Shown here one piece after another: positions 2,322 to 27,973 of a stretch of DNA of 43,889 nt. Numbering within the stretch: position 1 is the stretch's first letter; each line of letters begins with the position of its first letter. Made by a program: the position numbers and the translations under genes. The stretch is from Gammaproteobacteria bacterium (GTDB taxonomy: Bacteria; Pseudomonadota; Gammaproteobacteria; GRL18), in the NCBI GenBank assembly GCA_016744395.1, contig JADGEK010000036.1, positions 1-43,889 of the forward strand, in the 5' to 3' direction. Below the pieces are notes generated by a model, which saw nothing but the letters and a program-made list of their open reading frames with translations, was not told the origin of the DNA and made no database searches.

Positions 2322-2354
2322 ATGCTCAATTACGATGTGAAGGTAAATTATAGT

Positions 2355-5840: not shown

Positions 5841-5892
5841 AAAAATAATGCGGGATGATGAATTAAACTATTAACTATAATCAAGCCATTAT

Positions 5893-5928
5893 TTAGCCTC
5901 TCTTTGAACATCAAAATATAGAGGCTAA
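5893..5928. terminator. Candidate bidirectional terminator hairpin
   Basis: TTAGCCTCT (5893-5901) pairs perfectly with AGAGGCTAA (5920-5928), and a nested TTTGA/TCAAA stem sits in the loop. It lies between the convergent ends of the PEPCK-like gene and the TolC-like gene. There is no clear U-tract on either side, so termination efficiency is uncertain. Confidence 0.5.
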
Positions 5929-5934
5929 TGATGA

Positions 5935-7242: not shown

Positions 7243-7273
7243 ATATCAATCTCTAACCGCTCTTTTGTTTGTG

Positions 7274-8590: not shown

Positions 8591-8593
8591 AAA

Positions 8594-10297: not shown

Positions 10298-10351
10298 TAA
10301 ATATCAATACAGAGTCTGTGTAAGGTTAGAGTTAAAATCACTGAACAGGTG

Positions 10352-13300
10352 TTAATCAGTACCGATGACCATAAAGGGCGCCCAGAACATGGGATGAGCA
10401 TAATATGAAAACTCTTTATTATCAATTAAATCAAGCACTGCTAAACGATGTGCTTCTGATTTTGTTAAGTTTTTTTTCTGACTATAAGTAAACAGGTTCG
10501 TCGTCAATGTGACGGTGGCATCAGACAAGACCTCCCAGTGAGTCACAAGAATGCTTCGAGCACCTGCGTAAAAAAATGCTTTTCCTAAACCAGAAAGACC
10601 TTCTGCTCCAGGAGTTCCATCATCAGAGGCTGTGTTACAGGCTGATAACACAACCATATCGACATTCAGATCAAGCTCAGTGATCTCACTGGCTGTTAAC
10701 AAGCCATTATTGCTCACACCATAGCTTGATATTGAGGGTGTTAAGACTAACGCAGGCTCAAACAGACCTTCAAAATCACCTGCCATCAGACCATGAGTTG
10801 CAAATTGTACGACATGGTAATTTGAGAGATTTTTCTGAAAAAGAGTTTCTTCTGTTGCCTCATCTCTCAAGTAAACATCTTTACTATTACCTTTTAGTAT
10901 GGATGAAATCTGTTTCAACTCTGTTGCCGTTTCAGGCAGTTCAGGTATTTCAGATAAAATATCCACAGCAACATTGGAACGATGACTGCCAATGATAGAG
11001 CGGAGACTATTGGAACTCATCAAGTTATCATTTACTCCAGTCAAGCCACGTAGAGCAGGACTATTACTGCGTAATTTAATTGTTTCGACTGTTTTCACTA
11101 GTGAAGGATCGCCAAAACCAACAAAGCTATGCACGGAGGTATTTTTTTTATGTTTAATATGTCTTAATAAAGTGAAGGAATTGACCGCAGGTAACGATGA
11201 AACAGTCTTTTCTTTAATTAACCAATGGACATTTCGATGCTGTTCAGGTGTTTTAATCTCACTTAATGGCTTCTGAGTAATCAATACAGACAAGGGTAAA
11301 CTTTGTAAGGCCGCATCAGAAATGACAAACAGTTTTTTTATGTCATTGAGTGATGAATAAGCGGGTTCCAGTATTTTTTTAAAGAGTTGATAGGTCTTAT
11401 TAACAGGTAAAGGTGGGATTTGATTAAAATCAGCCACCGTAAGATATCTAGGTACCAGGACTTGTCTTAAAGTTCGAACAGTTTGTTCCAGTTCATCTTC
11501 ATTGATGTCAAGTTGATAAAGATTTGCAGTCGTTGGCTTGACTAGCCATAGATAGCTTTTTTCTTGACCGAACAAGTAAACAACCATTGCTTCATCTGTT
11601 TTTAAAGCAGCTTGAACCTGCTTGATTGACACGGTGTTTGAATTAGCAAGGTTATCATACTTAGGAAATTGATTACGAATTTCCAATTCACTTTTCTCAA
11701 TATTATCTTTCAGATTTTTGGCAAACTGGCGTAATTGATCTTCATATTCAAAATTACGTTGTGCTGGCTTTTGAGCAAAAGCCGTAGATAAAATCGTATC
11801 AATATCCTGCCATTGCTCCAGTAAGTCCTGCTGTGCACGTATTTTTTGAGCCAGCACATCAGAACCTGTTGAAAAACGATGAGACATTTTAGCCAAGGCT
11901 CTGGCTGCACTGGTTGAACGAGATAATTGGGCTGTTTCAAAAGTCTCATTTAATAATTCATCTTTATGATTAAATTTATATTGACTATAAAGGATGTCAA
12001 TATGATTAATTGAAACTTGCTTTAAAGATTTTAATTCTGTGGTCAGGCTCTGAGCTCGAAGACCAGAATGCCTCTTTACTCTTAACTTTAAGCCTTTAAT
12101 CGCTTTTCTGGAATAATCAATAGCCTGTTGAGCTTTGTATCTATCCAGATAAAATTTTGCAATATTCGAGTTCAGTTTAATTTCTTCCAGCCAATCCCCT
12201 GAGCCTAACTGGCCTGCAGCAGTAATGCCACGTAAGTAGTATTTTTCTGCTTCACTATAGCGTTTCAGTGAAAACAGGACGTTAGCAATTTGGTGGTTCA
12301 CCTCTGCCGTCGCAATATTAAAATCACCGTATTTTTCCTGTAAAACTTTTAATGCCACAAAAAGCTTATCTAAAGCTTGTTGTGGCTTTCCCTGACGAAA
12401 TAATGAAACCGCCAGCCATGTCTGTGCATTAGCCGTAAACCTCGGACGATATGAATCAGGTTTGGACCAAATATTAGTGGCTTGCTTAAAATGGTGAATG
12501 GATGGATTGTGTTGATTTAAAAGGTAATAAAGATAGCCAAGATGATTGTGAGTTTCGGCAATTGAAATATGATAGGCCTTATAAAATTGATGTTTAATTT
12601 CTAATGAACGCTTTAGCACCTTTTCAGACTCTTCATAACGTCCTTGAAGATAGTACAATTGCCCTAAATTATTCAAAATAGTCGCAATGTATGGGTGTTC
12701 TGCACCGACTTGTTTTTCATAGAGCACAAAACCTTGATGGTATAAATCTTCTGCTTCTGAAAAAAAATGCACCCCTTTAAGAGCACTGGCTAGAGATATC
12801 AGGGTCTGTGCGACGGCTGGGTCAGTTGCACCTAAATATTTCTGCCTCAATGATAATGTTTGTCGATATTGCTTAACCGCTTCATTGGTCTTCCCCTGCC
12901 CCAATAACATTTCACCTTTTAGCTGAAATATGTTTGCCTGCAGTATTTGAGCATTTTTTGATGTATCACTATTGATTAAGTCTTGAGATTCTTCTAAATA
13001 CTCATTCGCCTGGTTGCTTTCATGGCGCTTAATATGAACCCGAGCTAAAGGAAGTAATATTTCAATCAACTTAATGCTTTTGACTGGATACAGTTTTCTT
13101 GCAAGAGTCAGCAATTCATTATATTTTTTTAATCCCAGACGTTCATTACCCTGATTAATGGCATTTTGGGCCATCAAAAAATTAACACGGAGATTATCAA
13201 GAGTATCTCTATACCCCCATACCGACAACTTTTCAGATAAAGCACTTAGGGTTGATTGCTGCTTTGGATAATCGGCACGTCGAAGGTACATATCAGCCAG

Positions 13301-13540
13301 AGTCAAATAACTTTTATACAGCAGTGATTTATTGGTTTGTGAATTTGCAGATTGTATAAATTGAAGGAGTCGATCTTCTGCTTCTTGTTTCTTACCATTT
13401 TTATACAATTCAATTGAATGTTGTAATGCAAAAGAAGATGTTGACGGTGATTGTACGCTGACTGCAAGAGTGCTTGTCGACGTGAATAAAAAAAAAGCAA
13501 GAACAAAGAAGAGTATAGAAAAAGTCGTTTTATCAGTCAT
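10352..13540 (-). CDS. Exported TPR-repeat CHAT-domain protease
   Basis: 1062 residues. A signal peptide at residues 1-26 (hydrophobic ILFFVLAFFLFTS) is followed by many tetratricopeptide repeats of kinesin-light-chain type (about 35-560; for example LNNLGQLYYLQGRYEESEKV), a helical linker, and a C-terminal CHAT domain (about 730-1060). The CHAT catalytic pair is visible: His about 916 in FATHG and Cys about 968 in LSACNT, followed by GAEGLSGLGKAFFYAGARS. CHAT proteins are caspase-clan (CD) cysteine proteases; TPRs usually bind the partner or substrate. The gene lies between the giant repeat protein (33 bases upstream) and the exporter genes, so its substrate may be the exported protein or an envelope partner. 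That link is inferred. Confidence 0.92.
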   Translation of the reverse strand: MTDKTTFSILFFVLAFFLFTSTSTLAVSVQSPSTSSFALQHSIELYKNGKKQEAEDRLLQFIQSANSQTNKSLLYKSYLTLADMYLRRADYPKQQSTLSALSEKLSVWGYRDTLDNLRVNFLMAQNAINQGNERLGLKKYNELLTLARKLYPVKSIKLIEILLPLARVHIKRHESNQANEYLEESQDLINSDTSKNAQILQANIFQLKGEMLLGQGKTNEAVKQYRQTLSLRQKYLGATDPAVAQTLISLASALKGVHFFSEAEDLYHQGFVLYEKQVGAEHPYIATILNNLGQLYYLQGRYEESEKVLKRSLEIKHQFYKAYHISIAETHNHLGYLYYLLNQHNPSIHHFKQATNIWSKPDSYRPRFTANAQTWLAVSLFRQGKPQQALDKLFVALKVLQEKYGDFNIATAEVNHQIANVLFSLKRYSEAEKYYLRGITAAGQLGSGDWLEEIKLNSNIAKFYLDRYKAQQAIDYSRKAIKGLKLRVKRHSGLRAQSLTTELKSLKQVSINHIDILYSQYKFNHKDELLNETFETAQLSRSTSAARALAKMSHRFSTGSDVLAQKIRAQQDLLEQWQDIDTILSTAFAQKPAQRNFEYEDQLRQFAKNLKDNIEKSELEIRNQFPKYDNLANSNTVSIKQVQAALKTDEAMVVYLFGQEKSYLWLVKPTTANLYQLDINEDELEQTVRTLRQVLVPRYLTVADFNQIPPLPVNKTYQLFKKILEPAYSSLNDIKKLFVISDAALQSLPLSVLITQKPLSEIKTPEQHRNVHWLIKEKTVSSLPAVNSFTLLRHIKHKKNTSVHSFVGFGDPSLVKTVETIKLRSNSPALRGLTGVNDNLMSSNSLRSIIGSHRSNVAVDILSEIPELPETATELKQISSILKGNSKDVYLRDEATEETLFQKNLSNYHVVQFATHGLMAGDFEGLFEPALVLTPSISSYGVSNNGLLTASEITELDLNVDMVVLSACNTASDDGTPGAEGLSGLGKAFFYAGARSILVTHWEVLSDATVTLTTNLFTYSQKKNLTKSEAHRLAVLDLIDNKEFSYYAHPMFWAPFMVIGTD

Positions 13541-13573
13541 CAGATCATTGGTATTTCATTATGTGACAGCGGT

Positions 13574-16500
13574 TTATGCCACGGATGTATTGAGTTGGCT
13601 ATCACTATACACCGTCACAGCCTGATTGTCTGAAAGTGAAGTGTAACTGTTCAACGTCAAATCACCTGAGACATTAAAAGATTGCCCCTGTGACCAATCA
13701 CCTTGCAGCTGCAAATTGTCATTCGCATCACCCAGCACATAAACAGTATTATCACCTGACATTTGAGCCACAGAGCTGGTATCCAAAAGCAGTGTATTGG
13801 CTTGATTATTACTCAAATCAAGAACTTCAATGCTGGACAGATTATTTCCAGCATCACTAATATCGATAGAACCTTCCTGGACAAAGCGCAAGCGGTCAAA
13901 GCCTCCGCCACCGTTAATCGAGCCAAATTGACTTTCCAATGTGGTTAAAATATCATCCGAAGAAGTACCGACGGGAGTCTGAAACAAGCTTTGAACCAAA
14001 TCACTTTGCACGTACAGTGAGCTGCCAGCATTTTGATAAAGATACATATCAGGTGCATCAGAGAACTCGCCACGCCCCGTTAACACCCAGCTTTCGCCTG
14101 CTGCAGTCTGCACACTATCCTGGCCCGCATCACCTTTAATATACATTGTATTGTTTGTGGTACTATTGACCGTCGAGAGATTAAAAGTCACATTATCTGT
14201 CGAACCATTACTGACATCCAATAGCTCAATATTTGACACAGTTTTTCCGCTGCTCAAATCAATTTCATTGCCAACAGAGCTTAAAAGAGTAAGAGAGTCA
14301 AAACCTGCACCTCCATCTACATTCGCATCATTTTTATCTAAGAAAATAAATGAATCATTATTGCTGGTGCCCGTTGCATCAACAATAGGTGCTCCAAACT
14401 CAGCATCAGCATAAAGCAACACTTCAGTTCCAGCATCATCACCTCTGTAAACATGAAAGTTTGGCCAGGGATTAGCAGCACTCACATAACCCGCATAAGT
14501 CCAATTAGCGGCATCAGACAAAGCCAAACTATCACCACTATCACCCAGAGCAACCAGGGTATTATTCTGAGTAGCAGCCTCGGCAAAATCAGCCGAAAGA
14601 GTCAAGCCTGAGGCAACCCCTTCAATGCTGAGTACTTCAATATTAACTGTTTGACTGCCCAAAGCACTGAAATCAAAATTTCCAGCAGTCACCATTTGGA
14701 GCGTATCGGTGCCTGTCAAACCATCAATATAGGTGTAATTGGTGTTTTCCACCTGAAATGAGTTATGAATAATCCCAGTGCCTGCCAAATCACCCAGCAT
14801 GACGATATCAGGCTGATTATTGATACCATCCCATAGATTAACCGTTGTATTGGAACCATCTGTCGAGCGATATTGAAAAAACTTTAAGCCGACAAAATCA
14901 TTCAGACCATCTACATGGCCAAGATAACTCCAACTGGAACTGGTATTATTACTCAGGTCAGAGAGTAATACTGCATCATTCGCATCACCCATCACAGTAA
15001 TGGTATTTTGTGCATTACTCATGGCAGCCACAGAAGTCAAATTCAATGTCACGGTATTAACACCACTATCACCTCGGGCATCAATCACTTCCAATTCAGT
15101 GATTTTTGCAGCAACACCTGCTGTGGTGAAATTATAATTGTCACTGCTGACCAGCAACCAATCATTGACTCCACCACCGCCATTCAGTGAAGTAAAATTT
15201 AAATCCAGTGCAGTAAATTTATCACTGACATTATCCACACCAGAATTCAGACCTGGATTAAAAAAGACGCCAGGCGTACTCGCTAAATTCACCTGAACAT
15301 TGAGCACACTGCCATCATTTTGTTCAGTGGTTTTATATTGGTAGAGGCTTTGTCCACCAAGACCTGTCTCAAGTCCAGCAAAACTCCACTGACTGGCATC
15401 AGACAAACTAACGATATCAACACCTGCTTCACCTAAAATAGAGAGTATATTATCACTATCAGTGATCGTATCAACAACTGTTTCATTGATCGTAAACGTG
15501 GTAACACCAGCATGAGTATTACCTTCAATGACTTCGATATTACGGATAGTATTAATAGTAATCGATGCGTTGGTATAATTTTGCGTCGCTGAATTGAATC
15601 CTAAACTGTCTGTACCTGTACCACCATCAATGCCATCAAAAGTGGTGGATACAGGGGTAATGGCAAAGTCCCCTGCAAAACCATTGTAATAAGTGCCAAT
15701 ATTATCAGCCATTTCCAGTTCAACATTCAACGTCGTACCATCTTCTGCCTTGTATTGCTGAAAAGTATAATCCGTTAAATCATTCGTGCCACTGGTACTA
15801 CTATTAATCTGCCCCATATAATTCCATAGGCTTTGAATATCACTGACCGTTACACTGTCAGCATTGTCACCAATTAAGCTCAGAGTATCATTGCCATCAG
15901 TCGCCGCTTTTACGAATGTCTTATCAACGGTGATAGTGTCTACAGAAACAGGTGTATTACCCGTATGTACATTATTGCCATCTACCTCACGATAAGTGTT
16001 CGTGGTATTAATGATTTCAACATTGGCTAAATCACCCCCTTCTCCAGTAAAATTCTGGGTTTTAGCGACCAGGCCACTGTGCAATTCCAGGGTGTCAATG
16101 CCTGCCCCCAGATCAACACTACCAAATTGAGTGTCAGGTAATTCAAGTGCATCATTACCCGCAGTCCCTGCATAATACCAATCTGGATGGTTAAGTATAT
16201 CTGCAGAGATATTCAGATAATAACTGTCACCTCCGTTAGTGCCCTTAAACTGATATAAAATATTGCCATAAGCATCACGAGTCGAATCAATGTCTTTAGT
16301 TAAAGGTGATAAATTATCACCATTATCGATATTGTACTGAGCAAATGTTTTCCAGGTTGAATCACCATAGTCATAGGTCCAGTTGTCAATGGTATGAGCG
16401 GCAATATCAATAATTCCCTGATAAAGCCAAACACTTTCATCAGTCAGGGTGACGGTATCTGCAGCATCGCCTGCAACAGTTAATGTCCAATGCTGTGAAT

Positions 16501-18634
16501 GGTCTCCTGCATCAAAGAAACTTTCACCGCCATCAACAACTCCATTACTATTGAAGTCTACCCATTTCATTTCTTCAGCAACGGATTTAAGAGCCTCTTC
16601 ATTTAGAACTACATTATTGGTTCCATAATGACGAGCCTCAAGAATTTCGATGTTATTAATTTTGGTATAAGCCGTATTGGTCATCAGATCATAATCTCCG
16701 TCGCCATCACCAAAGCCTGTTGGCACAGTGGCAGCATTCGGATCCCCAGGCAAGCTCAGATCACCGCCAGGCAGATAAAAACTTAAAGTATCTGTATCAT
16801 ATTCGCCTGTATCTATCGAGACAAAATCTGAATTATTAGCACCACTGACAGCATATTTCTCATCTATAAAACTATCCCCTACAATGCTGTAACGGGAAAT
16901 ATTAGTATTATAAACAATATAATCTTGAAGAGGATGTAGATGATTGGGTTGATAATAAAACCCATCATTAACTGCAAGGTGTTCTGAACCATCCATGTAA
17001 AAGGTCAACACTGACGAAGAATCACTGTATGAGCCAATACTTGAAGAACCGCCTGCACCTGCTAATGTGACATTATCAAGAGTGACATTATTATAATTAG
17101 CAATGCCAATTGAGGCGCCATCCCAAACCGCTTTAAATCCAATATGATTTCCCGCTGCACCGCTACCATCTGAAAAATCAAACGCATCAGCACCACTTAT
17201 GGTTGCATCACTGGCAAAGGTTGTGACACCTAACTGGGCATTGATAATATCAACCACACCCTGTCCATCGGTTGCAGCAGACACATCAATAACAATGGAT
17301 TGGGCACCTGCAAGCGTATAGTTAAGCGTCAGAATAGTACTTGCAGCCACATCAGTAAAGCCAGTGAGCTTGGCATAAGAAAATGTAACAGGGGAGCCTC
17401 CTGATGTGGTCAACCCTCCCGTTGCGCTATAAGAGTGTATGAAATCATTAGCATCACTAAAAACTAATAAATCTTGGGGACTGGAAACAGGAGCAGTATA
17501 GGCATAAAAATGAATCTCAGTATAGGTGTCACCGAATAAACTGGAACCATTTAAATGCGTTAAAACATCCCAGTGCATGTCTTTAAAAGATAAGTTGAGT
17601 TGGCCATCAAAATTAATAATATGCTCTGCTCCAGTAGGGAGAGTAGCCAAACCAGCAAAAGAATCTGACGGAGGAGCCAGGGCAGTTGGAGCCGCAGCGC
17701 CTAAAGCACCACTGATGCCATCCGAAGAAAGCCCAGAACCTAAAGAACCCAGAACTCCATCACTACTGCCATTGCCATTGATGCCATTAACATCACTGGT
17801 ACTGTAAGCTGTTCCTGTCGTACCATTAATAGAGTTTAATGACGCTTGATTTGCCCCAATAGAACCCAGGCTATCGGATAATCTTGCCAGATTTTCTGGT
17901 GGTGGGGTATAGTTAATTGGCACTCCATCCGACTCATCAGAAGTAGATCCAATAGTCACTGGCACTGAGAATGCAAACAATTCAGGTGTTGACAAGCCTT
18001 CTTCAGAGACAGGTACATCACCTGACTCAGGAGCATTAGAAACAACGCTCAAAGGTTCTAAAAAGTCTGACGTTATTGCATTGTCAAGCTCAAGCAACTC
18101 ATTTTCTAATAACTGTATATCACCCTCTATATTGAGGATTTCTGCTAAAAAGTCAGTGTCAATTGATGATAATTCAATAGGCTGCTCTAAAAGAGCGTCT
18201 AAGGATTCAAACGTTTCTGTTAGTGAAGCAGTTGGAGCAGGAACAATAGAAGCAAGCCCAAAATCATTGATTAAATCAGAAAAAATCGCTGCATCCATGA
18301 CAAAGAGAGTATTAGCAGCCTGTCCTGCTGACAGAGCCTCTGGCATTAGATTGGTCGACATAACATCAGTTAATGTAGGTGGAACTTCTTCCTGAAAAGT
18401 TAATTCAACAGGGAGTCCCAATGAATTTGTTTCTACAAAGGGAGATCCGATTTCTGGTTCTGAGTGCTTATGAGTGACTAAAGAGATAGAAGCATCCGAT
18501 GTTTTTATAAAATAGTCTTTAATAATAAGTAACTTACCACTTGCCAATTGAATAATTAAATTATTCCCATACTGAGCAAATTCAGCATTTTGCAATAGTT
18601 CAGGCTTTATTGTAGAAATTTGGTTAATTTTCAA
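13574..18634 (-). CDS. Giant repetitive protein, probable type I secretion substrate/adhesin
   Basis: 1686 residues. The start codon is TTG at 18634: AGGAA lies 9 bases before it, there is an in-frame stop just upstream, and no ATG is nearby. Residues 1-60 (GNNLIIQLASGKLLIIKDYF) resemble the N-terminal prefix module of BapA-type biofilm adhesins. A Gly/Ser/Asn-rich linker spans about 250-320. A perfect EF-hand loop, DFNSNGVVDGGE, sits near residue 692. At least six modules of about 137-160 residues follow, each opening with a degenerate calcium-loop motif (GGxGxDxL variants near 838, 998, 1146, 1298, 1434 and 1571), then a NIEVLD-like strand and a GDAxDxVxLSD...WxYxG segment. There is no Sec signal, as expected for type I export. 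The adjacent ABC-HlyD-TolC genes make it the likely cargo. Confidence 0.85.
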   Translation of the reverse strand: MKINQISTIKPELLQNAEFAQYGNNLIIQLASGKLLIIKDYFIKTSDASISLVTHKHSEPEIGSPFVETNSLGLPVELTFQEEVPPTLTDVMSTNLMPEALSAGQAANTLFVMDAAIFSDLINDFGLASIVPAPTASLTETFESLDALLEQPIELSSIDTDFLAEILNIEGDIQLLENELLELDNAITSDFLEPLSVVSNAPESGDVPVSEEGLSTPELFAFSVPVTIGSTSDESDGVPINYTPPPENLARLSDSLGSIGANQASLNSINGTTGTAYSTSDVNGINGNGSSDGVLGSLGSGLSSDGISGALGAAAPTALAPPSDSFAGLATLPTGAEHIINFDGQLNLSFKDMHWDVLTHLNGSSLFGDTYTEIHFYAYTAPVSSPQDLLVFSDANDFIHSYSATGGLTTSGGSPVTFSYAKLTGFTDVAASTILTLNYTLAGAQSIVIDVSAATDGQGVVDIINAQLGVTTFASDATISGADAFDFSDGSGAAGNHIGFKAVWDGASIGIANYNNVTLDNVTLAGAGGSSSIGSYSDSSSVLTFYMDGSEHLAVNDGFYYQPNHLHPLQDYIVYNTNISRYSIVGDSFIDEKYAVSGANNSDFVSIDTGEYDTDTLSFYLPGGDLSLPGDPNAATVPTGFGDGDGDYDLMTNTAYTKINNIEILEARHYGTNNVVLNEEALKSVAEEMKWVDFNSNGVVDGGESFFDAGDHSQHWTLTVAGDAADTVTLTDESVWLYQGIIDIAAHTIDNWTYDYGDSTWKTFAQYNIDNGDNLSPLTKDIDSTRDAYGNILYQFKGTNGGDSYYLNISADILNHPDWYYAGTAGNDALELPDTQFGSVDLGAGIDTLELHSGLVAKTQNFTGEGGDLANVEIINTTNTYREVDGNNVHTGNTPVSVDTITVDKTFVKAATDGNDTLSLIGDNADSVTVSDIQSLWNYMGQINSSTSGTNDLTDYTFQQYKAEDGTTLNVELEMADNIGTYYNGFAGDFAITPVSTTFDGIDGGTGTDSLGFNSATQNYTNASITINTIRNIEVIEGNTHAGVTTFTINETVVDTITDSDNILSILGEAGVDIVSLSDASQWSFAGLETGLGGQSLYQYKTTEQNDGSVLNVQVNLASTPGVFFNPGLNSGVDNVSDKFTALDLNFTSLNGGGGVNDWLLVSSDNYNFTTAGVAAKITELEVIDARGDSGVNTVTLNLTSVAAMSNAQNTITVMGDANDAVLLSDLSNNTSSSWSYLGHVDGLNDFVGLKFFQYRSTDGSNTTVNLWDGINNQPDIVMLGDLAGTGIIHNSFQVENTNYTYIDGLTGTDTLQMVTAGNFDFSALGSQTVNIEVLSIEGVASGLTLSADFAEAATQNNTLVALGDSGDSLALSDAANWTYAGYVSAANPWPNFHVYRGDDAGTEVLLYADAEFGAPIVDATGTSNNDSFIFLDKNDANVDGGAGFDSLTLLSSVGNEIDLSSGKTVSNIELLDVSNGSTDNVTFNLSTVNSTTNNTMYIKGDAGQDSVQTAAGESWVLTGRGEFSDAPDMYLYQNAGSSLYVQSDLVQSLFQTPVGTSSDDILTTLESQFGSINGGGGFDRLRFVQEGSIDISDAGNNLSSIEVLDLSNNQANTLLLDTSSVAQMSGDNTVYVLGDANDNLQLQGDWSQGQSFNVSGDLTLNSYTSLSDNQAVTVYSDSQLNTSVA

Positions 18635-19018
18635 GTTGGCTTGTTCCTATTTTTCCATACCAATGTAGTCAAAGCTCATAGAAATGGGTAAAACGTTATT
18701 TAATTCCCTACTTTAAGTATGGCTTTATTTTGAATAAAAATCAATATTCAATATGATATACTTACTGAAAAAAAACAATATTTTTACAAACAATATCAAT
18801 AGTTTAAAAAAATAATCATATCTGGCAGCCGTTAAGTATCAGTATCTAAACTAACTGCTGATTAAGCCAATTAATGTTGTCTATTTCAATGCAGTGAATG
18901 GAACAATAGAATCAATTAAGAAAATATTCTTAATTTTGGATCTTCAAATTAAACCGTACCTTTTAAACTTACAGCTTAGTGAGCAGAGCGGCACTTGGGG
19001 CTTAAAAGAATCGAGGGG
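18635..19018. promoter_or_regulatory. A+T-rich region upstream of the giant protein gene
   Basis: No gene is seen. AATTAAGAA (18914-18922) and TTCTTAATT (18927-18935) form a perfect 9-bp dyad around AATA, about 280 bases upstream of the TTG start. It could be an operator or a weak structured element. A promoter for the adhesin-secretion unit should lie here, but no unambiguous -35/-10 pair was found. Confidence 0.4.
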
Positions 19019-19508
19019 CTCGCTAGGATAAGTGCTTGTGAAAACGATTGTGAGGTGGATGGTCTTGCTTGACTGGGGACGCTTCAAGCCATCCATGGTC
19101 GCTTAAGTTCCGGCATCCATGCCTCCACAAACCCCATTCAAGCAAGACCACCCACCCCCCACTCTTCAATCGCAGTTTTCCTCACTCGTGTTATCCAAAA
19201 GCAACATCAAAAGATGAGAAAAAGTCAAATAACAACCCCCTCAGTCCCCCTTCTAAAGAAGGGGGAAGCAACAGCAAAAACTCTGAATATTGGTCTTGTT
19301 CCAGTTGCTTTGGTTTTTGATGTTGCTTTTGGACAACGCGAGCGAGGTAAGTGCCGTAAGAGGCTGTGAGGAAGGTAGGTGCGTCTGTCTGGGGTTTTCG
19401 AAGGCATGGATGCCGGAGGTTAAGCATGCCAGGGATGGCCTTGAAGCGGCCCCAGCCAGATGCACCTATCTTCCTTACAGTCGTTTTATAAGCATTTCAC
19501 CGAGCGAG
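19019..19508. mobile_element. 490-bp fold-back (MITE-like) element built from two inverted 170-bp palindromic copies
   Basis: Copy A (19019-19188) and copy B (19339-19508) are each imperfect palindromes of about 170 bp and lie in opposite orientation. The outer ends match (CTCGCT-GG...TGCTT...AAAACGA). The cores share GCTTCAAG-CCATCC and CCGGCATCCATGCC. Inside A, GGTCTTGCTTGA is inverted at 19060-19071 and 19138-19149; inside B, 19364-19394 pairs with 19450-19480. The 150-bp centre is bounded by a 22-bp inverted repeat (19191-19212 with 19315-19336, 21 of 22 matching) and holds TCCCCCTTC-TAAA-GAAGGGGGA (19245-19266). There is no transposase, so it is a non-autonomous element or REP-like composite. 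Confidence 0.8.
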
Positions 19509-19650
19509 AAACACTTCTCTTTCTGTTGATCTTGAATTACCGCAATGCTCATTAAGCTACAGGTTTAAAAACCGAAAGTACTGAAGTGTAAAAAAGCATT
19601 AAGAGCCATTTATTCCCTCAGCTAATGCCCCTTATCTAAGTTAATAACTC

Positions 19651-20292
19651 TTACTTCTGTGCATTAATCACTCTAAACTGCACTCTCCTGTTTTCAGGAG
19701 AACCAGGTTCAGAAGGCGTCAACAACTCATCTTCACCTTTACCAACCACAATCATGCGTTTATCAACCACATTGTACTGGCTTAAATGATTTTTCACACT
19801 ATCTGCCCTTTGCTGTGATAGCCACAGGTTATAGTAGGTTTCACCAATAGCATCCGTGTGCCCTTCAATGACAAAGAAGCAATTTTGCAACTGAGGCATA
19901 TTCATTGCCTGTGCAATTTTCTTAAGCATTTGAGTGTCCTGAGCTTCAATAGTACTGGAGTTAGATTGAAAACGAATATTGACAGCAACCGATTGAGCGC
20001 CCGCCATACAAGCATCAGCAGCCTGATTGGCAGCCATCTGCTGACCCATTTCTTGTTGATCAGCCTCAATTGCTGGTTTATCTTTCTTCAAACTAATGCC
20101 TCTAAACTTCATACTACTTGCAGCTGGGGTTTTCTCAACCATGAAAGCATTTAAGATATCATCAGAAGAAGGATCCTGATTTTGCAAAGAAACAACACCG
20201 TCTTCAGCAATCGCGTTGAAACTGATAGAAGCGAATACGCAAATACTCAAAAAACCTTTTAATGTTTTTCCCAAAATTGTTTTATTACTCAA
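19651..20292 (-). CDS. OmpA-family peptidoglycan-binding protein
   Basis: A TTG at 20292 preceded by GGAGG at 8-base spacing is preferred to the in-frame TTG at 20307, which precedes that ribosome site; this gives 213 residues. A signal peptide (GFLSICVFASISFNAIA) leads into a linker rich in polar residues and a C-terminal OmpA-like domain (about 90-210). That domain shows NIRFQSNSSTI, IEGHTDAIGETYYN, LSQQRADSVKNHL and NRRVQF, the features that bind diaminopimelate in peptidoglycan. No beta-barrel domain is present, so it is a periplasmic or peptidoglycan-anchored protein. It ends the sensor run that starts with the Ser/Thr kinase and is separated from the giant protein by the 1-kb repeat-bearing gap. 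Confidence 0.88.
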   Translation of the reverse strand: MSNKTILGKTLKGFLSICVFASISFNAIAEDGVVSLQNQDPSSDDILNAFMVEKTPAASSMKFRGISLKKDKPAIEADQQEMGQQMAANQAADACMAGAQSVAVNIRFQSNSSTIEAQDTQMLKKIAQAMNMPQLQNCFFVIEGHTDAIGETYYNLWLSQQRADSVKNHLSQYNVVDKRMIVVGKGEDELLTPSEPGSPENRRVQFRVINAQK

Positions 20293-20361: not shown

Positions 20362-21288
20362 CTATGGAATACTCCAAATATCTAATGCGTATTTAGCTAT
20401 ATTAGATTGTTTATTTTCAGATAAGATTTGATCCATTTTTTCCTTGTAATCGTGACTTTTTTCAATAATTTCAACTGATTTCAACTCATCATTCAGTGGT
20501 GAAGCACTGACCATAGCCTGTATGCGCTCTTCACCATAGGGATTTTCAACAACTAATTTCAATTTGGATTTATTGCCTCCAACCACATAAATTTGACCCG
20601 CTTTTATTTCATGCTTTTCTTCAAACAGGTTAGGAATCAAGTGAACTACATTGCCATCAGCCTGAAAATAATCCAGTTTTAAATAAGCATCTCTATCCGC
20701 TATTAAGTAAATAATAATATGCTCACCAGAGCGATAATACATATTATCTTTCTTAGCAGTCCATATTCTCAATTTTACATCATTTTGGTTTTGTCTGGGA
20801 TTCACCCGCCAGCTTTTAGATTTATCGTTTTTCATCACTTCTGCTGATAAGTCATTTTTTGGCGATTTTACTGGTGATACGCCTCGAACATGAAATGCCG
20901 CTTTTTTAAAGCTGTCTTTATCACTTAATACAACTTCTGGAACCTCACAATCAAACACTTCCGTTTTTTGAAGTTTGCCACTCAGCACCTTACTTTTTTC
21001 CAGCCCAACCTGCAGAATCGTATTTTCACCAAACCATTCCTGACGGCAACCTAAATAATAAGTCAAAACCAGTGATGAATTCGGTCCTACTTCCATTTTA
21101 TCTTTAAAAATAACATCATCACCAAAATCGGCAGCTTTATTAGCCTCACTTACGATAGAAACATTGCCGTCCAAATTGGTAATAATACCCACCGCCGACT
21201 GCTCACTCGCATTACTGGTAAAAGTGATCAAAACCATAGCACAGAGCAGAATGCTGAACAGAATGTTTCTTTTTAATTCCTTAGTCAT
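20362..21288 (-). CDS. Periplasmic FecR-like protein with C-terminal DUF4384-like domain
   Basis: 308 residues. A signal peptide covers about 1-28 (ILLCAMVLITFTSNA). Residues about 32-125 (VGIITNLDGNVSIV...GPNSSLVLTYYLGCRQEWFG) have the look of a FecR-type periplasmic sensory domain. Residues about 170-275 (YRSGEHIIIYLIADRDAYLK...HLIPN...PYGEERIQAMVSASP) match the DUF4384 pattern, a domain also visible in the kinase that heads this cluster. ATG 21288 overlaps the cyclase stop by 8 bases (ATGACTAA), so translation is coupled. It probably relays an envelope signal to or from the cyclase. The ligand is unknown. Confidence 0.8.
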   Translation of the reverse strand: MTKELKRNILFSILLCAMVLITFTSNASEQSAVGIITNLDGNVSIVSEANKAADFGDDVIFKDKMEVGPNSSLVLTYYLGCRQEWFGENTILQVGLEKSKVLSGKLQKTEVFDCEVPEVVLSDKDSFKKAAFHVRGVSPVKSPKNDLSAEVMKNDKSKSWRVNPRQNQNDVKLRIWTAKKDNMYYRSGEHIIIYLIADRDAYLKLDYFQADGNVVHLIPNLFEEKHEIKAGQIYVVGGNKSKLKLVVENPYGEERIQAMVSASPLNDELKSVEIIEKSHDYKEKMDQILSENKQSNIAKYALDIWSIP

Positions 21289-23101
21289 TGTTTGCTTCTC
21301 TTAAACTTTTCACTTCATAGACATAAATATCTGCCCGGCCTTTCAGAGCAACATTGCCTTTGGCTTCGCAAATCACTGAGTGCTCAACTTCTTTTTGAGC
21401 ATCGTCTGTTAATAGTATAGGAGCTCCGACTGTTTTAGTCACCCCTTCAACTCTGGATGCGGTATTCACACTATCACCAATTGCAGTGTAGTCCATTTTC
21501 TTGTCCGAACCAATATTGCCAACCAGTGCATACCCTGTATGCAAACCAATACCATTATCTAGCTGTGCCCGGTCTTCTGACGCCCACTTACGATTTAACG
21601 CTTCCAGCCGTTTACGCATTTCAATGGATGCTTTGACAGCGGCCAGAGTTGGATTGTCAATATAAAGCGGTGCACCGAAAAAGGCCATTAAACCGTCGCC
21701 AATAAACTTATCAACCGTACCACCATTTTCTAATATCGCCTCAGTCATTGCAGAAAAATATTCATTCAAAGCTTTAACCACCTCTTCTGGAGGTAAATTC
21801 TCCGAATAAGTCGTAAAACCTCGAATATCAGAAAAAAGAATGCAAATTTTTTCTCTTTTTCCTTCTAAAGCAAGAGGCTTATCTGAACTTAAAATTTCTT
21901 TCACAACTTGTTCATTAACATAGCTTCTAAAAAATTTAGCCAGGCGTCGCTTACTTCTCTCTTCAGTCACAAATCGATAAAAAAAGCTGACACCAAAACT
22001 CCAGAAGATCAAGATAATCGGAACAATGTAGGGTAAAAGAATATTGGAATTAAATACGATTAAATTAACCACCGAATACAAAAGAAGCACCACCATCGTT
22101 AACAGAATGGATGAACGTATTCCTTTTTTTGATGAGTAATAAACCACCAGAAAAGCAAGACCAAAGTTCAGAGCTAAAATCCAGGCAAAAGATATACTGG
22201 TTAACAAGTTATTATTAACCAGCATATCAACGCCATGAGCATGAATAAGAACACCTGGCGTTTCTTGAGCAATCGGTGAAGGTAAAATATCTCCAGAAAC
22301 ATTTGTTACACCAACCAGAACAATTTTATCTTTAAAATTTTCTTCAAAGTAAACTTTGTTATCGGCTTTGGCCTGATTTAAAACCTCGATAAAAGAGAGA
22401 ATTTTAAATTCTTTATTCAATTGATAATTAATCAATAAGGGCTTGCTATCCAGTATTTGTGTAGAATTATTGAGAAAATGGGTTGCAACCAGATGATCAA
22501 AACCTGGAAGTGATTTCTGATCTCCAGTCACTGAAGGGTATTGCAGTTTTATTTGTCGAATATAGTTATCAGAATCAGGTAAAGTGTTAACGACACCAAA
22601 ACCATCGCGACCAACAATTGCACCGAAGTGCTTCATTGGTAAAGAGGTATCAAGCTCATGCAGTTGAGGATCCAGGTTTTTTCTTGTTGCACCACCAATA
22701 CCCATAACAATTTTTGTATGATATTTATTTTGAGCAATCAGCAAAGCCCGTCTTAATGCATTTCGTTCTTTAGCAGGTCGCTTTACAAAATCATCAATTC
22801 GTTTTGTCCAAATTAAGTCAAGCCCAATCACTTTTGCCTGGTATTTCCCTAACTTCTCAAAAATTTCAGCAAAAAAGGTATCCCACAAAATGAAAGGCTG
22901 TTTAATTTCTCTGATAGAAACATCATCAATGCCGATAATGACAATTTGATTGGAAACTTCTTTATCATAAAAATAATCACTGCGTAATTCATAACGAGCA
23001 TCAAGTGCTTTCATTTCAAGAAAATGAACAACGCCTGTGTGCTCAATCAGTGTACTAAAAAGCACACCCAGTAGTGCAATAATAATGTATGGGTATTTCA
23101 T
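21281..23101 (-). CDS. CHASE2-domain class III adenylate cyclase
   Basis: 606 residues. An N-terminal membrane anchor, an extracytoplasmic CHASE2 sensor (about 25-290, including IVIIGIDDVSIREI), three transmembrane helices (about 300-375) and a class III cyclase domain (about 395-600). Metal-binding aspartates are present (FSDIRGF, Asp about 425; IGDG, Asp about 469). The purine-specifying positions carry Lys (DKFIGD, about 465) and Asp (KMDYTAIGD, about 537), as in adenylate rather than guanylate cyclases, and NTASR supplies the Asn/Arg transition-state residues. It should therefore be active and make cAMP in response to an envelope signal. It is coupled to the FecR-like gene and follows the hydrolase gene by 33 bases. 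The ribosome site is weak. Confidence 0.93.
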   Translation of the reverse strand: MKYPYIIIALLGVLFSTLIEHTGVVHFLEMKALDARYELRSDYFYDKEVSNQIVIIGIDDVSIREIKQPFILWDTFFAEIFEKLGKYQAKVIGLDLIWTKRIDDFVKRPAKERNALRRALLIAQNKYHTKIVMGIGGATRKNLDPQLHELDTSLPMKHFGAIVGRDGFGVVNTLPDSDNYIRQIKLQYPSVTGDQKSLPGFDHLVATHFLNNSTQILDSKPLLINYQLNKEFKILSFIEVLNQAKADNKVYFEENFKDKIVLVGVTNVSGDILPSPIAQETPGVLIHAHGVDMLVNNNLLTSISFAWILALNFGLAFLVVYYSSKKGIRSSILLTMVVLLLYSVVNLIVFNSNILLPYIVPIILIFWSFGVSFFYRFVTEERSKRRLAKFFRSYVNEQVVKEILSSDKPLALEGKREKICILFSDIRGFTTYSENLPPEEVVKALNEYFSAMTEAILENGGTVDKFIGDGLMAFFGAPLYIDNPTLAAVKASIEMRKRLEALNRKWASEDRAQLDNGIGLHTGYALVGNIGSDKKMDYTAIGDSVNTASRVEGVTKTVGAPILLTDDAQKEVEHSVICEAKGNVALKGRADIYVYEVKSLREANND

Positions 23102-23134
23102 AAGTAAAAGTTCATGATTAAGTATTCATACCTT

Positions 23135-23989
23135 CTATTTATTATTATGTTGAATTTCAGGCCAATGTTCTACCCAACAACATGAGTGATCAAAGCCTTC
23201 AACAATACGATAATGTACAAAAGTATTATCGATAAGATGGTTTAATAAAGCCTCATTGATTTTTAATGGGACAATTAAGTCATTACTTCCAAACAAGTGA
23301 AACTGTGGCACGTCCTTCAATTTAGAGAGAAAAGAATGAATATCCAGAGAACCCTTTAAAGGAGTGACCTCATGGTATCTAGTCCACAGTTTATGGTCCA
23401 GGTTCGAAGCAATTGTCGTTAATTGAACAACGTCACTGCGTTGAGCTGCAAGCAACATGCCAATCACTCCACCGCCAGAAAAACCAATAATTTCAAATTG
23501 ACGAATACCATACTGCTCTTTCAAGGCATTAAAAATCACATGATAAGCATCAATAACTGCCTGGCTATAGCGATGACTGGTCCAATACTTTGGCTCACAA
23601 TTGATCATTGTCTGGCTAATTTCAAATTGACAAGGACGGGCAAGATAAAGAACATTATTGCGATCATCCTTAACAGCCAAACGTAATGCCATCGGGTTGA
23701 CTGGTGTCGGGTTAATGGAGCGTTTAAAACGACTTTGCCATGCTAAGCCATCGCCTTCAATATAGACGGTTAATACCTTTAAAGCCTTTTTCCTATTATT
23801 TTTTAATGCAGAACTTTTTTTCCAGCCAAAAATTGTAAAAACGCCTGTATCAAACGTAATTGATTGAAGCCCCGCTTTTGCTGCAATTCTCGTGGCAGTT
23901 TCACTACGCTCGGTTAAATCCGTCATTGAACAGGAGAACACAAAAAATAAACTGCCTAAAAGTAAACAATAATCTCTGATTAACCTCAA
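23135..23989 (-). CDS. Alpha/beta-hydrolase-fold putative lipoprotein
   Basis: 284 residues from a TTG start; the ribosome site is poor, so the exact start is uncertain. The N-terminus (LLLGSLFFVFSCSM) looks like a lipoprotein signal with Cys about 20. The body shows an alpha/beta-hydrolase catalytic set: nucleophile elbow GFSGGGVIG (Ser about 170), an acidic residue in FGSNDLIVP and His in EGFDHSCCWVEHW near the C-terminus. RPCQFEIS and CEPKYWT precede the elbow. The substrate is unknown; an esterase or lipase acting in the envelope is the simplest reading. It lies 24 bases after the caspase-like gene and 33 before the cyclase gene, which ties it to the signalling cluster. Confidence 0.8.
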   Translation of the reverse strand: MRLIRDYCLLLGSLFFVFSCSMTDLTERSETATRIAAKAGLQSITFDTGVFTIFGWKKSSALKNNRKKALKVLTVYIEGDGLAWQSRFKRSINPTPVNPMALRLAVKDDRNNVLYLARPCQFEISQTMINCEPKYWTSHRYSQAVIDAYHVIFNALKEQYGIRQFEIIGFSGGGVIGMLLAAQRSDVVQLTTIASNLDHKLWTRYHEVTPLKGSLDIHSFLSKLKDVPQFHLFGSNDLIVPLKINEALLNHLIDNTFVHYRIVEGFDHSCCWVEHWPEIQHNNK

Positions 23990-24013
23990 TTTTTATCACT
24001 ATTATTTAAAAAC

Positions 24014-26494
24014 TTATTGATAAATCTCAAAATCATGCCCTTGGCTGGAACCAACAGGTGTCACAATCAATTTTTCATCCAGTCCACCTCTCTCACTACT
24101 TGAAGCATAGTTTCTTGAAGCCATAGCATGAGCTAGTGCTGGGACAAATTTTTCAGCATATTGTTGTAATTCGCTGACCATTAATTTGCCATCCTTAGGC
24201 CATTGATCCGCATTATAAAAACCTTGGCTATTCTTTTTCATGCCATTTAAGAGTGTATAAGTAAAAAGTCCATGCCCAAGTTCACCAAACTCAGGAGCTA
24301 ATTGATCTGCACGGGTAGCAGCAATAATATGAATACCTGTATTTTTAGATAAACCTCTCAAGGCTCTGCGCTGATGAAAGTTATTAAAGACATCGGTCAC
24401 TGCACCTGACTGACAGGCATCAATAATGAGCACAATTTTTTGACTTGGGATATCAACAAATTTGTGCATTAATTCATTTGCGGACAAACCAACGGACTTT
24501 AAATGCTTAGGGTCATTTTGAATTTTGGCTTCCTGCGGCAAAAAATACCATTGATTATCAATAACAATACCATGACCAGACATGAAAACGACTAACATAT
24601 CATTTTTATTTGCTACCCGCTTAGTTCGGTCAAATAAGGAAAGGATGGCTTTTTTACTGGCTTGCTGATTCAGCATTAAGGTATTGACTCTAGCACCTTG
24701 TTTTTTATTCTTATCCGAGGAAAAGGCTAGAGCAGAAGAAGAAAAAGTCTTAAAAATATCCTTTGCATCAGCAACAGCAAAATCAAGCGCTAAGTCTTTA
24801 CCTTTATATTCATCAATTCCAATACTCTTCATAAACATACGTTTAGGCTTAGGCCTTACATCTTGCTTCGCATTAAAAATAACTTGTTGAGACTGCCCTG
24901 AAACATTTTCCCAGCCTTTAACTTCAACATTAAAACCATTTAAACCCTTTACAGGCACCACTTTTAAAGCCCATTCTTTTATACCATAACGCCCATCTTG
25001 AGCACTTTTTGTTAAAATAATGTTTGACTCTGGTACTTTCTTTCCATTATGAAAAATTTTAATTTCACGCATTGCATCAGGTGAGCCATCGACGGTTGCT
25101 TTTACAGTCAGTTTAATTTTTCCAGGCAAGCGAAATTTTTTTTCATTTGTTAAAATTTTAACCGTCACTAAAGGGGGCAAATAAATACCTTTTTCAATTT
25201 CTACTTCAGGCTTAGTGATCATTTTTTGTTTCTTAGTCAATATTTTTTCTAATAAGCCTGGTTCAAAATATTTTTCAGAAAATTGGTCCAAGTCAATCAA
25301 CTTGCCTTCAGCATCCCATGAAACATCATGAAAGGCATCTTCATTACCATCATATCGGCCTTTTTTATCCAACACAGCCCAGCCACTTTTAGTTGAAACC
25401 AGTTGAGCTATTTTTTTATTCTGATTAACATCCACTAATAACAGGCCGCTTTGACGTTTAGGGGATATCAGATATTGACCTTTTTTGTAAAACTGAAATA
25501 AATTAGAGTTCAAATCAGTATTTAATATTGTCACTTTATTATTATTTAATATTTTTCCCGTCTTGACATTTTGCTTAACTACAGACCCCTCTTTTGTAAG
25601 AATATTTAACTGCTCATCAGAAAAATCGATTAATAAGGCAGGTTTATTAGCTAATTTAATTGCTTCAAACTTCTGTTTATTCTGATTTGCGTAAGCATAT
25701 CGTCCATTCTTAAAATACAACGCTAAGGCCGTTCCCTTACGGTTAAAGAAGGCTCTATTAATGGTATTCTTCATTACCCAGCTCTGGGAAAGAGACAATT
25801 TATTTGTTTTCTTAGAGAAGCGGTATAGAGATAATTTTTTATCAGCGCTTGATACTAAAATCTGATTGCTTTTATCAGCAACATCAAGCGAATTAATTGC
25901 TGATTTTAATTTAACTCTGGAAAGTAATTTATGTTGTTTATTTTTTTCAAAAACCAGAATTTCATTTTTTATTGTACTTAAAACAATCAATTCAGCACTC
26001 ACACGAACAAAATGATAACGATGGCCTTTCTGTAATTTTTTTATTCTTTTAAATGCTTCGCCTGCAACTAAAGGTTTACTATAAATCAAGCCTGAATCAT
26101 CAATCAAATAGATTTCCTTTCTATTATAATCAATAAAAAAATCTTTCAACTTCATTGATTCTAAAGAAAAATTATCAATTTCTTTGCCTTTTTCCATATC
26201 CCATACACTAATATAGGCACCTTCCATTGTCATGGCTAAATAGCGTTTATCTTTTGAAAAGCGCATTATTTGAGGATATTCAATTTTATTTTTTTTAGTT
26301 GTTAAGGTAGGAACAATCGCTGCTTTAACTTGTTTTTTAATAGCATTAGAAACCTGTGATGAAAGCTGTCCACCAAAGGGTCGAGCATGAGCGTATGAAG
26401 ATAAAAAGAAAACAATAAAAACAGTCATCAGGATACAAATTAATGCATTTCTTAATTTATAGCAGTGCTTAACCGTCATCATTCTCTCTCTCAT
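24014..26494 (-). CDS. Exported beta-propeller-like protein with C-terminal caspase (peptidase C14) domain
   Basis: 826 residues. A signal peptide or anchor spans about 16-38 (LICILMTVFIVFFLSSYAHA). Residues about 55-390 are blade-like repeats resembling WD40 (YLAMTMEGAYISVWDMEKG). A beta-rich linker follows, then a caspase-like domain (about 560-800): IGIDEYKG, FMSGHG with His about 641, and IIDACQSG with Cys about 694, the C14 catalytic dyad. ATG 26494 directly abuts the stop of the barrel gene (TAAATG); ATG 26482, right behind GAGAGAGA, is an alternative start. With the CHAT protein it gives this locus two different caspase-clan proteases. Substrate and activator are unknown. Confidence 0.92.
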   Translation of the reverse strand: MRERMMTVKHCYKLRNALICILMTVFIVFFLSSYAHARPFGGQLSSQVSNAIKKQVKAAIVPTLTTKKNKIEYPQIMRFSKDKRYLAMTMEGAYISVWDMEKGKEIDNFSLESMKLKDFFIDYNRKEIYLIDDSGLIYSKPLVAGEAFKRIKKLQKGHRYHFVRVSAELIVLSTIKNEILVFEKNKQHKLLSRVKLKSAINSLDVADKSNQILVSSADKKLSLYRFSKKTNKLSLSQSWVMKNTINRAFFNRKGTALALYFKNGRYAYANQNKQKFEAIKLANKPALLIDFSDEQLNILTKEGSVVKQNVKTGKILNNNKVTILNTDLNSNLFQFYKKGQYLISPKRQSGLLLVDVNQNKKIAQLVSTKSGWAVLDKKGRYDGNEDAFHDVSWDAEGKLIDLDQFSEKYFEPGLLEKILTKKQKMITKPEVEIEKGIYLPPLVTVKILTNEKKFRLPGKIKLTVKATVDGSPDAMREIKIFHNGKKVPESNIILTKSAQDGRYGIKEWALKVVPVKGLNGFNVEVKGWENVSGQSQQVIFNAKQDVRPKPKRMFMKSIGIDEYKGKDLALDFAVADAKDIFKTFSSSALAFSSDKNKKQGARVNTLMLNQQASKKAILSLFDRTKRVANKNDMLVVFMSGHGIVIDNQWYFLPQEAKIQNDPKHLKSVGLSANELMHKFVDIPSQKIVLIIDACQSGAVTDVFNNFHQRRALRGLSKNTGIHIIAATRADQLAPEFGELGHGLFTYTLLNGMKKNSQGFYNADQWPKDGKLMVSELQQYAEKFVPALAHAMASRNYASSSERGGLDEKLIVTPVGSSQGHDFEIYQ

Positions 26495-27919
26495 TTAAAA
26501 GTCATAACGTATATTTGCACTGACGGTATAATCATTATGACCTTCCCTTAAAAAGGTTTTATTGTAAGATATCTCACCCAATAAATTTTCACTTGCATTA
26601 AAACGAAGACCGACACCTGCATTCAATCCAAAATCATCATCTTCATAAAGTGAGCTGTCATTATCAGCAACATTCCAAAGAGCGCCTAAGGTACCATAGT
26701 ATTCGCCCCAACTTTTTGGTTGAGCTAATTCAGTATTCAGTAAAAATTCAGAAACAGTCGAGCTATCCAGATTCATCTGATTGGTTACACTCGAATTAGT
26801 TGATAACTGTGCAGTATAGGAGTCAGAGCTGGCATATCCATAGTTATACCCCAAATCCATGGTGAAATTCAGGCCATTATCCAGCTTAGAACTACGCATC
26901 ACTCCAAAACCAGCAAAGTGATTATCCGTATCATAATCACCATCAAACGAGGCTACTGAGCCAAAAATGGTTCGATCTTTAATATCCGTATCTGATGAGT
27001 TATAGCCAATATGTCCATAGGCAGTAAAGCCTGAATCAAAATTATAGGCCGCATAAGCCGAAATAACATAGCCATCAGTATCTGTTTTGCTCTTATCATT
27101 AGAGTCAGTGTCTGAGGATTCATACCCCACTAGACCGCCAAGCAATAATTTAGGATTAATGAGTATGTCTGCGCCTAACAAATAACTTTCCTGACTACCT
27201 GTAAAATGAGAAGCATTTGAAATCATGGCTGTATTTTTAATACTGGTATGAGTTGGCGTAAACCAGATTGCTACTCCAGAACTTGTATCCCCTGCATTCA
27301 ATCCATTTTCAGCATAATCGGCACGAGCTAAAGAAAAACGCCCCGTTTTATAAAGTGTTTTAATGTGATCGGTGTAGGTAGAACGTATATGATCGACTTT
27401 TTTTCGTAATACATCGCGATTAATATTTTCAACAGACTCTTCTGCTCTTTCTTGATCTTGGGCAGAAATTCCATAATAACTCTGGCCACTAAAGTGATCC
27501 ACAATAATATAAGATGGGATATCTCCAGAAAAAGTCACGTTAAATACTTCCAGACCCGCGCCTATAGATGTGCCTGTCAAAGTATAACCCGTCGTTCCAC
27601 TGGTACCGACAGTCGTTGTGTTTGAATATTGAGAAACTAAAATGCTCTGGTTCGTAACACCACCACTACCTGTAAAGGTAAGGGATGATGTCGTGGAAAC
27701 CTGGGTGATAAAACCATTATCTTCAAGTGCAAGAAAAGGGCTAAATCCACTCGTTGTCACTGAAGCAGTTGTTGAGAAACAAGTGGTACAAGCCCAGGTC
27801 AATTGGTATTCCCTAACATTATTACCACCATTTAAAGCATCTGCAGATGCAATATTAGCAAAAACCAACCCTGACAAAGTAAAAAGGCTTGCTAGAGAAG
27901 TTTGTTTATTAAAAATCAT
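26495..27919 (-). CDS. Outer membrane autotransporter-type beta-barrel protein
   Basis: 474 residues. A signal peptide (about 1-26, ending NIASADA) is followed by a Ser/Thr/Gly-rich N-terminal domain (about 30-155) with a WACTTC motif, a charged helix (about 160-200, QERAEESVENINRDVLRKK) and a C-terminal barrel (about 205-474) of alternating strands ending in RYDF. A terminal Phe is the classic BAM recognition feature. The barrel strands (YLLGADILINPKLLLGGLVGY) match the autotransporter domain. The passenger is very short, so it may act as an outer-membrane sensor or anchor rather than a classical adhesin. It lies 54 bases after the kinase gene and abuts the caspase-like gene. Confidence 0.83.
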   Translation of the reverse strand: MIFNKQTSLASLFTLSGLVFANIASADALNGGNNVREYQLTWACTTCFSTTASVTTSGFSPFLALEDNGFITQVSTTSSLTFTGSGGVTNQSILVSQYSNTTTVGTSGTTGYTLTGTSIGAGLEVFNVTFSGDIPSYIIVDHFSGQSYYGISAQDQERAEESVENINRDVLRKKVDHIRSTYTDHIKTLYKTGRFSLARADYAENGLNAGDTSSGVAIWFTPTHTSIKNTAMISNASHFTGSQESYLLGADILINPKLLLGGLVGYESSDTDSNDKSKTDTDGYVISAYAAYNFDSGFTAYGHIGYNSSDTDIKDRTIFGSVASFDGDYDTDNHFAGFGVMRSSKLDNGLNFTMDLGYNYGYASSDSYTAQLSTNSSVTNQMNLDSSTVSEFLLNTELAQPKSWGEYYGTLGALWNVADNDSSLYEDDDFGLNAGVGLRFNASENLLGEISYNKTFLREGHNDYTVSANIRYDF

Positions 27920-27973
27920 TATGGCCTAATCCCTAAATTAAATTTTAATGTCTATAATACTGCTATTAATCAA

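Follow-up and report, generated by a model that had tools for sequence, protein, structure and literature searches.

TwoAYGGAY (Rfam RF01731) is described as a probable RNA that is not cis-regulatory and occurs in the human gut, Gammaproteobacteria, and Clostridiales (Weinberg et al. 2010, PMC2864571). Because it was already proposed to be a CsrA-binding sRNA (Gardner and Eldai 2015, PMC4333381), the CsrA idea considered below is not new. RF01731 sits in Rfam clan CL00106, which includes CsrB. The CsrB repeats are given as CAGGA(U/A/C)G, with a CsrA dimer bridging sites 10-63 nt apart; the GGA is placed in an ANGGAN hexaloop, and the SELEX consensus for CsrA is RUACARGGAUGU (PMC7652899). The published Rsm motif is CANGGANG (PMC6849547).

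The window, meaning the whole stretch of DNA that was analysed (43,889 nt, from a gammaproteobacterial contig), contains a composite of two TwoAYGGAY-like units. The sequence-only reading had placed a nested palindrome at 19019-19508. The palindrome is there, and all of its inverted arms were recovered, as was the C5/G5 hairpin; however, these ends are too short, since self-alignment pairs 18961 with 19570. The features, in window coordinates, are as follows.

About 5845-19660, no strand: extra block with type I secretion genes, a TPR protein, a BapA-like adhesin, and the element; missing from the locus in genomes G004, G005, and G012
18961-19570, no strand: the entire composite, an inverted pair of units flanked by inverted termini, from self-alignment; counterparts at C162, C52, and C157
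18961-18985, plus strand: left terminal inverted repeat
19039-19171, minus strand: left unit, a TwoAYGGAY-like long hairpin with its GGA loops on the minus strand
19090-19097, minus strand: loop of the second small hairpin of the left unit, CATGGATG
19114-19121, minus strand: loop of the first small hairpin of the left unit, CATGGATG
19177-19212, no strand: left arm of the inner inverted repeat around the centre, partner of 19315-19350
19228-19280, no strand: independent short dispersed repeat that contains the C5/G5 hairpin (19246-19265)
19315-19350, no strand: right arm of the inner inverted repeat
19355-19489, plus strand: right unit, a TwoAYGGAY-like long hairpin with its GGA loops on the plus strand
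19405-19412, plus strand: loop of the first small hairpin of the right unit, CATGGATG
19430-19437, plus strand: loop of the second small hairpin of the right unit, CAGGGATG
19546-19570, minus strand: right terminal inverted repeat

The inverted arms pair as 19177-19212/19315-19350, 19101-19136/19390-19425, 19046-19078/19132-19164, and 19070-19088/19440-19458. RNA folding, which the sequence-only reading had proposed as a check, gave -265 kcal/mol for the region; shuffled sequences averaged -154.8 (z = -18.6), and none of 100 folded as well. The full-length layout, with both termini or with one decayed, also occurs at C162, C52, and C157, and C120 is a nearly empty pair of termini. The element is therefore a composite that runs from terminus through unit, centre, and inverted unit to terminus. 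Its terminal inverted repeats are a trait of MITEs. By position it is an ordinary dispersed repeat; by content it stands out as a mobile composite built from a known structured RNA, with strong indications of selection at the RNA level and paired sites of the CsrA type.

Against RF01731, the right unit scored 35.2 bits and the left unit 23.0 bits, both below the gathering score of 43. The homologous units in a genus relative (G001, locus L046) reached that score, with 45.6 and 43.1 bits. Judged by these sequence scores, the half-unit family lies inside, or just outside, Rfam TwoAYGGAY. We built a covariance model, R1, from 47 units. The 58 core hits had yielded 49 alignment rows after the removal of six duplicates and three hits without the searched motif pair; two further rows, one truncated and one with an insertion, were omitted from the model. 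The minus-strand row of locus L011 stands in a shifted frame in alignments A1 and A2. In the window, R1 scored 95.2 bits for the left unit (19055-19159) and 99.6 bits for the right unit (19367-19473). Among 12 R1-found loci from other families, only one had any RF01731 match, and that match was below threshold.

A BLAST search with the reported 490 bp against its own genome gave 52 matches, including the stretch itself and its reverse-strand self-match; the sequence is thus repeated and not unique, uniqueness being the outcome that the sequence-only reading had named as contrary to its proposal. The 490-bp stretch had matches in 19 of the 96 genomes searched, its own genome counted, and none in the genus relatives G009, G010, and G014, so the distribution is patchy even within the genus. 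Eight copies of one subfamily are near-identical inside the unit and have unrelated outer flanks. R1 found 34 matches in the own genome; this number includes a few that are weak or that read the same hairpin on the reverse strand. At an E-value of 1e-4 or better, it matched 58 of 369 Gammaproteobacteria and 50 of 271 genera, and eight selected genomes carried from 14 to 123 matches each at 1e-6. In G309, from an unrelated family, paired units stand about 325 bp apart (e.g., C2:356664-357092) with the polarity plus then minus; the order in the own genome is the opposite, minus then plus. The CCCCCTTCTAAAGAAGGGGG hairpin at 19228-19280 forms an independent small dispersed repeat, also present at L029-L032, L034, and L036-L038. 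This C5/G5 repeat was found without units elsewhere in the own genome and in the family genera g3 and g4.

The search for an autonomous copy with the same ends returned eight sites with the terminus pattern at five places, all of them non-coding copies. By eye, no clear target-site duplication was seen at the copies inspected. The element had no match in the plasmid and phage collections searched as a possible source. A RAYT/REP origin was rejected, since no unit lies beside any of eight Y1 transposase matches; the sole BLAST match within the Y1 loci was 22 bp long (E = 0.003) and came from the centre of the element.

A few of the listed copies are truncated; almost all units form a long hairpin, in which the tip (about 60 nt) is conserved and the stem (about 25-37 bp) differs in sequence among subfamilies. 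Of the 35 pairs in the family's own set of 49 aligned units, 31 had changed on both sides; the number of two-sided cells was 471, compared with 145 after shuffling. Outside the family, 26 loci supplied 30 units, in which two-sided changes were present at every one of the 24 main-stem pairs and 98.6% of the stem cells were paired. The stems diverge between subfamilies yet keep pairing.

The tip consists of two small hairpins, each with an CANGGANG loop closed by C-G. Both loops are of the CsrA type (CANGGANG or CAGGANG) in 46 of the 49 aligned units, or in 46 of 52 distinct units when the three dropped rows are counted as failures. Both hairpins match strictly in 38 of the 52 distinct units, and in these the loops are spaced 24-25 nt apart. 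Ten of the 12 columns that hold the fixed CANGGANG letters are invariant, as compared to four of the 48 other core columns; the N positions of the CsrA motif vary among units while the fixed letters hold. In other families the loop letters are nearly invariant as well, with both strict motifs in 89 of 100 sampled units, a count that is partly circular, since these units were found by R1 and the model favours the loop letters. Read as AYGGAY loops on an outer stem, the left unit of the window has AUGGAU twice and the right unit has AUGGAU and AGGGAU, so that one of the four loops has R in place of Y. In both window units the paired CANGGANG motifs have GGA in hairpin loops and lie within the published bridging range of 10-63 nt.

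We counted wobble pairs on the GGA strand, with the register set by Watson-Crick pairs only. In other families G-U outnumbered A-C by 47 to 2 (119 distinct units), and in the own family by 35 to 14 (46 units), the latter a weaker ratio from a set collected mainly by BLAST. Across 37 genomes, G-U was more frequent in 20 and A-C in one. These counts come from related copies, and the R1-found units were chosen by a score that slightly favours G-U. If pairing were kept as DNA only, G-T and A-C would be expected in about equal numbers on a given strand. The tolerance of G-U on the GGA strand thus points to selection on an RNA read from that strand, and the stem sequences indicate a strand-specific signature of such selection.

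Intergenic sites lay between convergent genes in 36 cases and between divergent genes in 11 (p = 0.0003); the convergent to divergent ratios were 8:1 in the own genome, 9:2 at the class loci, and 19:8 in six genomes. Gene context came from a crude ORF caller, which could not classify two of the 20 own sites, six of the 26 class loci, and 45 of the 100 regions; the 20 own sites exclude the window's own element and some weaker R1 hits, and the 100 regions were drawn from the best listed matches of six of the eight high-copy genomes. Placement by gene 3' ends is compatible with a role in 3'-end RNA. Single units were antisense to tandem neighbours in 5 of 7 cases in the own genome, 7 of 9 at the class loci, and 16 of 28 in the six genomes. 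The antisense bias seen in a hand count (12 versus 4) was not confirmed in the six genomes (16 versus 12, p = 0.57; pooled p = 0.10). Both genes that flank the window element point leftward; relative to both, the left unit lies in sense orientation and the right unit in antisense.

The suggestion that the element terminates transcription fared poorly. At least five T in the eight bases past the stem were found on the GGA strand in 3 of 114 distinct units of other families and in 2 of 45 units of the own family (0 of 45 on the other strand); an intrinsic terminator was rejected because T-runs so rarely follow the stem. Only one site in the region looks like a terminator, the unrelated C5/G5 hairpin, and it is at chance level. 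A search of the window element for a dedicated promoter returned none above chance. CsrA is encoded in the own genome. A csrA gene was found in 54 of 58 unit-positive genomes and in 259 of 311 others, a weak association (p = 0.07; 0.04 in near-complete genomes). It was not detected in four unit-positive genomes; one of these, G218, is 98% complete.

We consider it probable that the element is a mobile, non-autonomous composite of two divergent TwoAYGGAY-type copies whose transcripts would carry dual predicted CsrA sites. Multi-copy dispersal, inverted termini, a conserved architecture, the CANGGANG loops, compensatory stems, and the wobble signature are all present in the data. Any effect on nearby genes, like CsrA binding and transcription, is an inference. 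Under this proposal a unit would be transcribed from the GGA strand, probably within a 3'-end or read-through transcript, and its long stem would present the two small hairpins about 24 nt apart. One CsrA/RsmA dimer could then bridge both small hairpins of a unit, and the copies might jointly act as a scattered sink for CsrA, or as a mark or protection for the transcripts that bear them. Counting against the proposal are the lack of an above-chance promoter in the element, the many units antisense to tandem neighbours, the genus relatives with no match, the four unit-positive genomes in which csrA was not detected, the weak association with csrA, and the sub-gathering RF01731 scores of the window units.

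Recent spread into unrelated flanks, terminal inverted repeats, and a patchy distribution would also be expected of a purely selfish, MITE- or REP-like DNA palindrome, whose hairpins serve a transposase, whose arms are kept alike by template-switch correction, and whose likeness to CsrA sites is incidental; the convergent and tandem intergenic placement resembles that described for REPs (PMC3733652). However, the large excess of G-U over A-C on the GGA strand is unexpected from DNA pairing, the loop letters are those of the CsrA motif with its N positions variable, and neither a transposase with matching ends nor a unit at the Y1 transposase loci was found. We therefore think this explanation unlikely. 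If pairing is selected at the RNA level, a hairpin that stabilises the 3' end of an mRNA or guides RNase processing would account for the stems of about 25-37 bp and for sites close to gene ends; here the long duplex does the work, and the loops are read by a protein other than CsrA or by none. We give this reading little credence, since it leaves unexplained the two loops fixed at the CA-GGA-G positions and their constant 24-25 nt spacing.

The location of the element also has to be weighed. As the sequence-only reading had stated, it separates sensor from secretion genes, with kinase, cyclase, and OmpA genes on one side and type I secretion and adhesin genes on the other. The sensor half (20362-29578) encodes a Ser/Thr kinase with DUF4384, a caspase/WD40 protein, an autotransporter-like protein, a CHASE2 adenylate cyclase, and a second DUF4384 protein; the BapA-like adhesin of the block is 1686 aa long. 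In G004, G005, and G012, the gene at 2322-5840 directly adjoins the ompA-like gene, and the 13.8 kb at about 5845-19660 are therefore extra here. In the relative G005, the 3' end of the ompA-like gene carries a 23-bp tandem repeat (L081:3722-3770). The element lies at the right edge of the 13.8-kb block, with 405 bp between it and the start of the adhesin gene downstream, so the idea that it marks a junction is partly supported; the left edge has no copy. That recombination between copies brought in the secretion and adhesin block would fit this right-edge position on a block missing from the three relatives, and also the ABC transporter of the block, which was found at an E-value of 1e-100 or better only in the own genome among 24 searched. 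With the left edge bare and the other copies in ordinary intergenic places, we regard the element as a very improbable cause of the junction.

The mobile composite with predicted CsrA sites remains our preferred reading. A broader version of it, in which a family in Gammaproteobacteria equips dozens of transcripts per genome with dual predicted CsrA-binding hairpins at their 3' ends and so forms a transposable sponge, is possible but doubtful. If true, a mobile sponge would, alongside the dedicated sRNA genes, help to determine how much CsrA is available or what becomes of the marked transcripts, and the stem of a unit may diverge freely provided that pairing stays. The findings suggest that in many Gammaproteobacteria mobile repeats may tune Csr/Rsm regulation. 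A structured RNA family whose function is unproven is a high-copy dispersed repeat here and in the other genomes counted, and this makes the published CsrA proposal for TwoAYGGAY directly testable.

None of six core strings was found printed in papers, and, judged by titles and the beginnings of abstracts, we recognised no paper that links CsrA to dispersed palindromes. The REP/BIME repeats, including the GTAG- and CGTC-tagged families (Di Nocera et al. 2013, PMC3733652), are likewise described as dispersed palindromes with paired inverted units at convergent and unidirectional intergenic sites. Their family stems are given as 5-13 bp (PMC3733652), whereas the stems here are about 25-37 bp and variable and carry conserved GGA loops; in contrast to RAYT-linked REPs, no Y1 transposase neighbour was found for the units. 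With CsrB/RsmB (RF00018, clan CL00106) the units share repeated GGA hairpins, and units of the S1 subfamily have the CsrB repeat CAGGA(U/A/C)G (PMC7652899) as their loop. However, CsrB gathers many sites in a single dedicated gene, whereas here there are many scattered two-site units, with no promoter seen. TwoAYGGAY (RF01731) has the same two small GGA-loop hairpins on a longer outer stem; what sets the units apart from it is that they form a high-copy dispersed repeat, arranged in inverted composites with termini.
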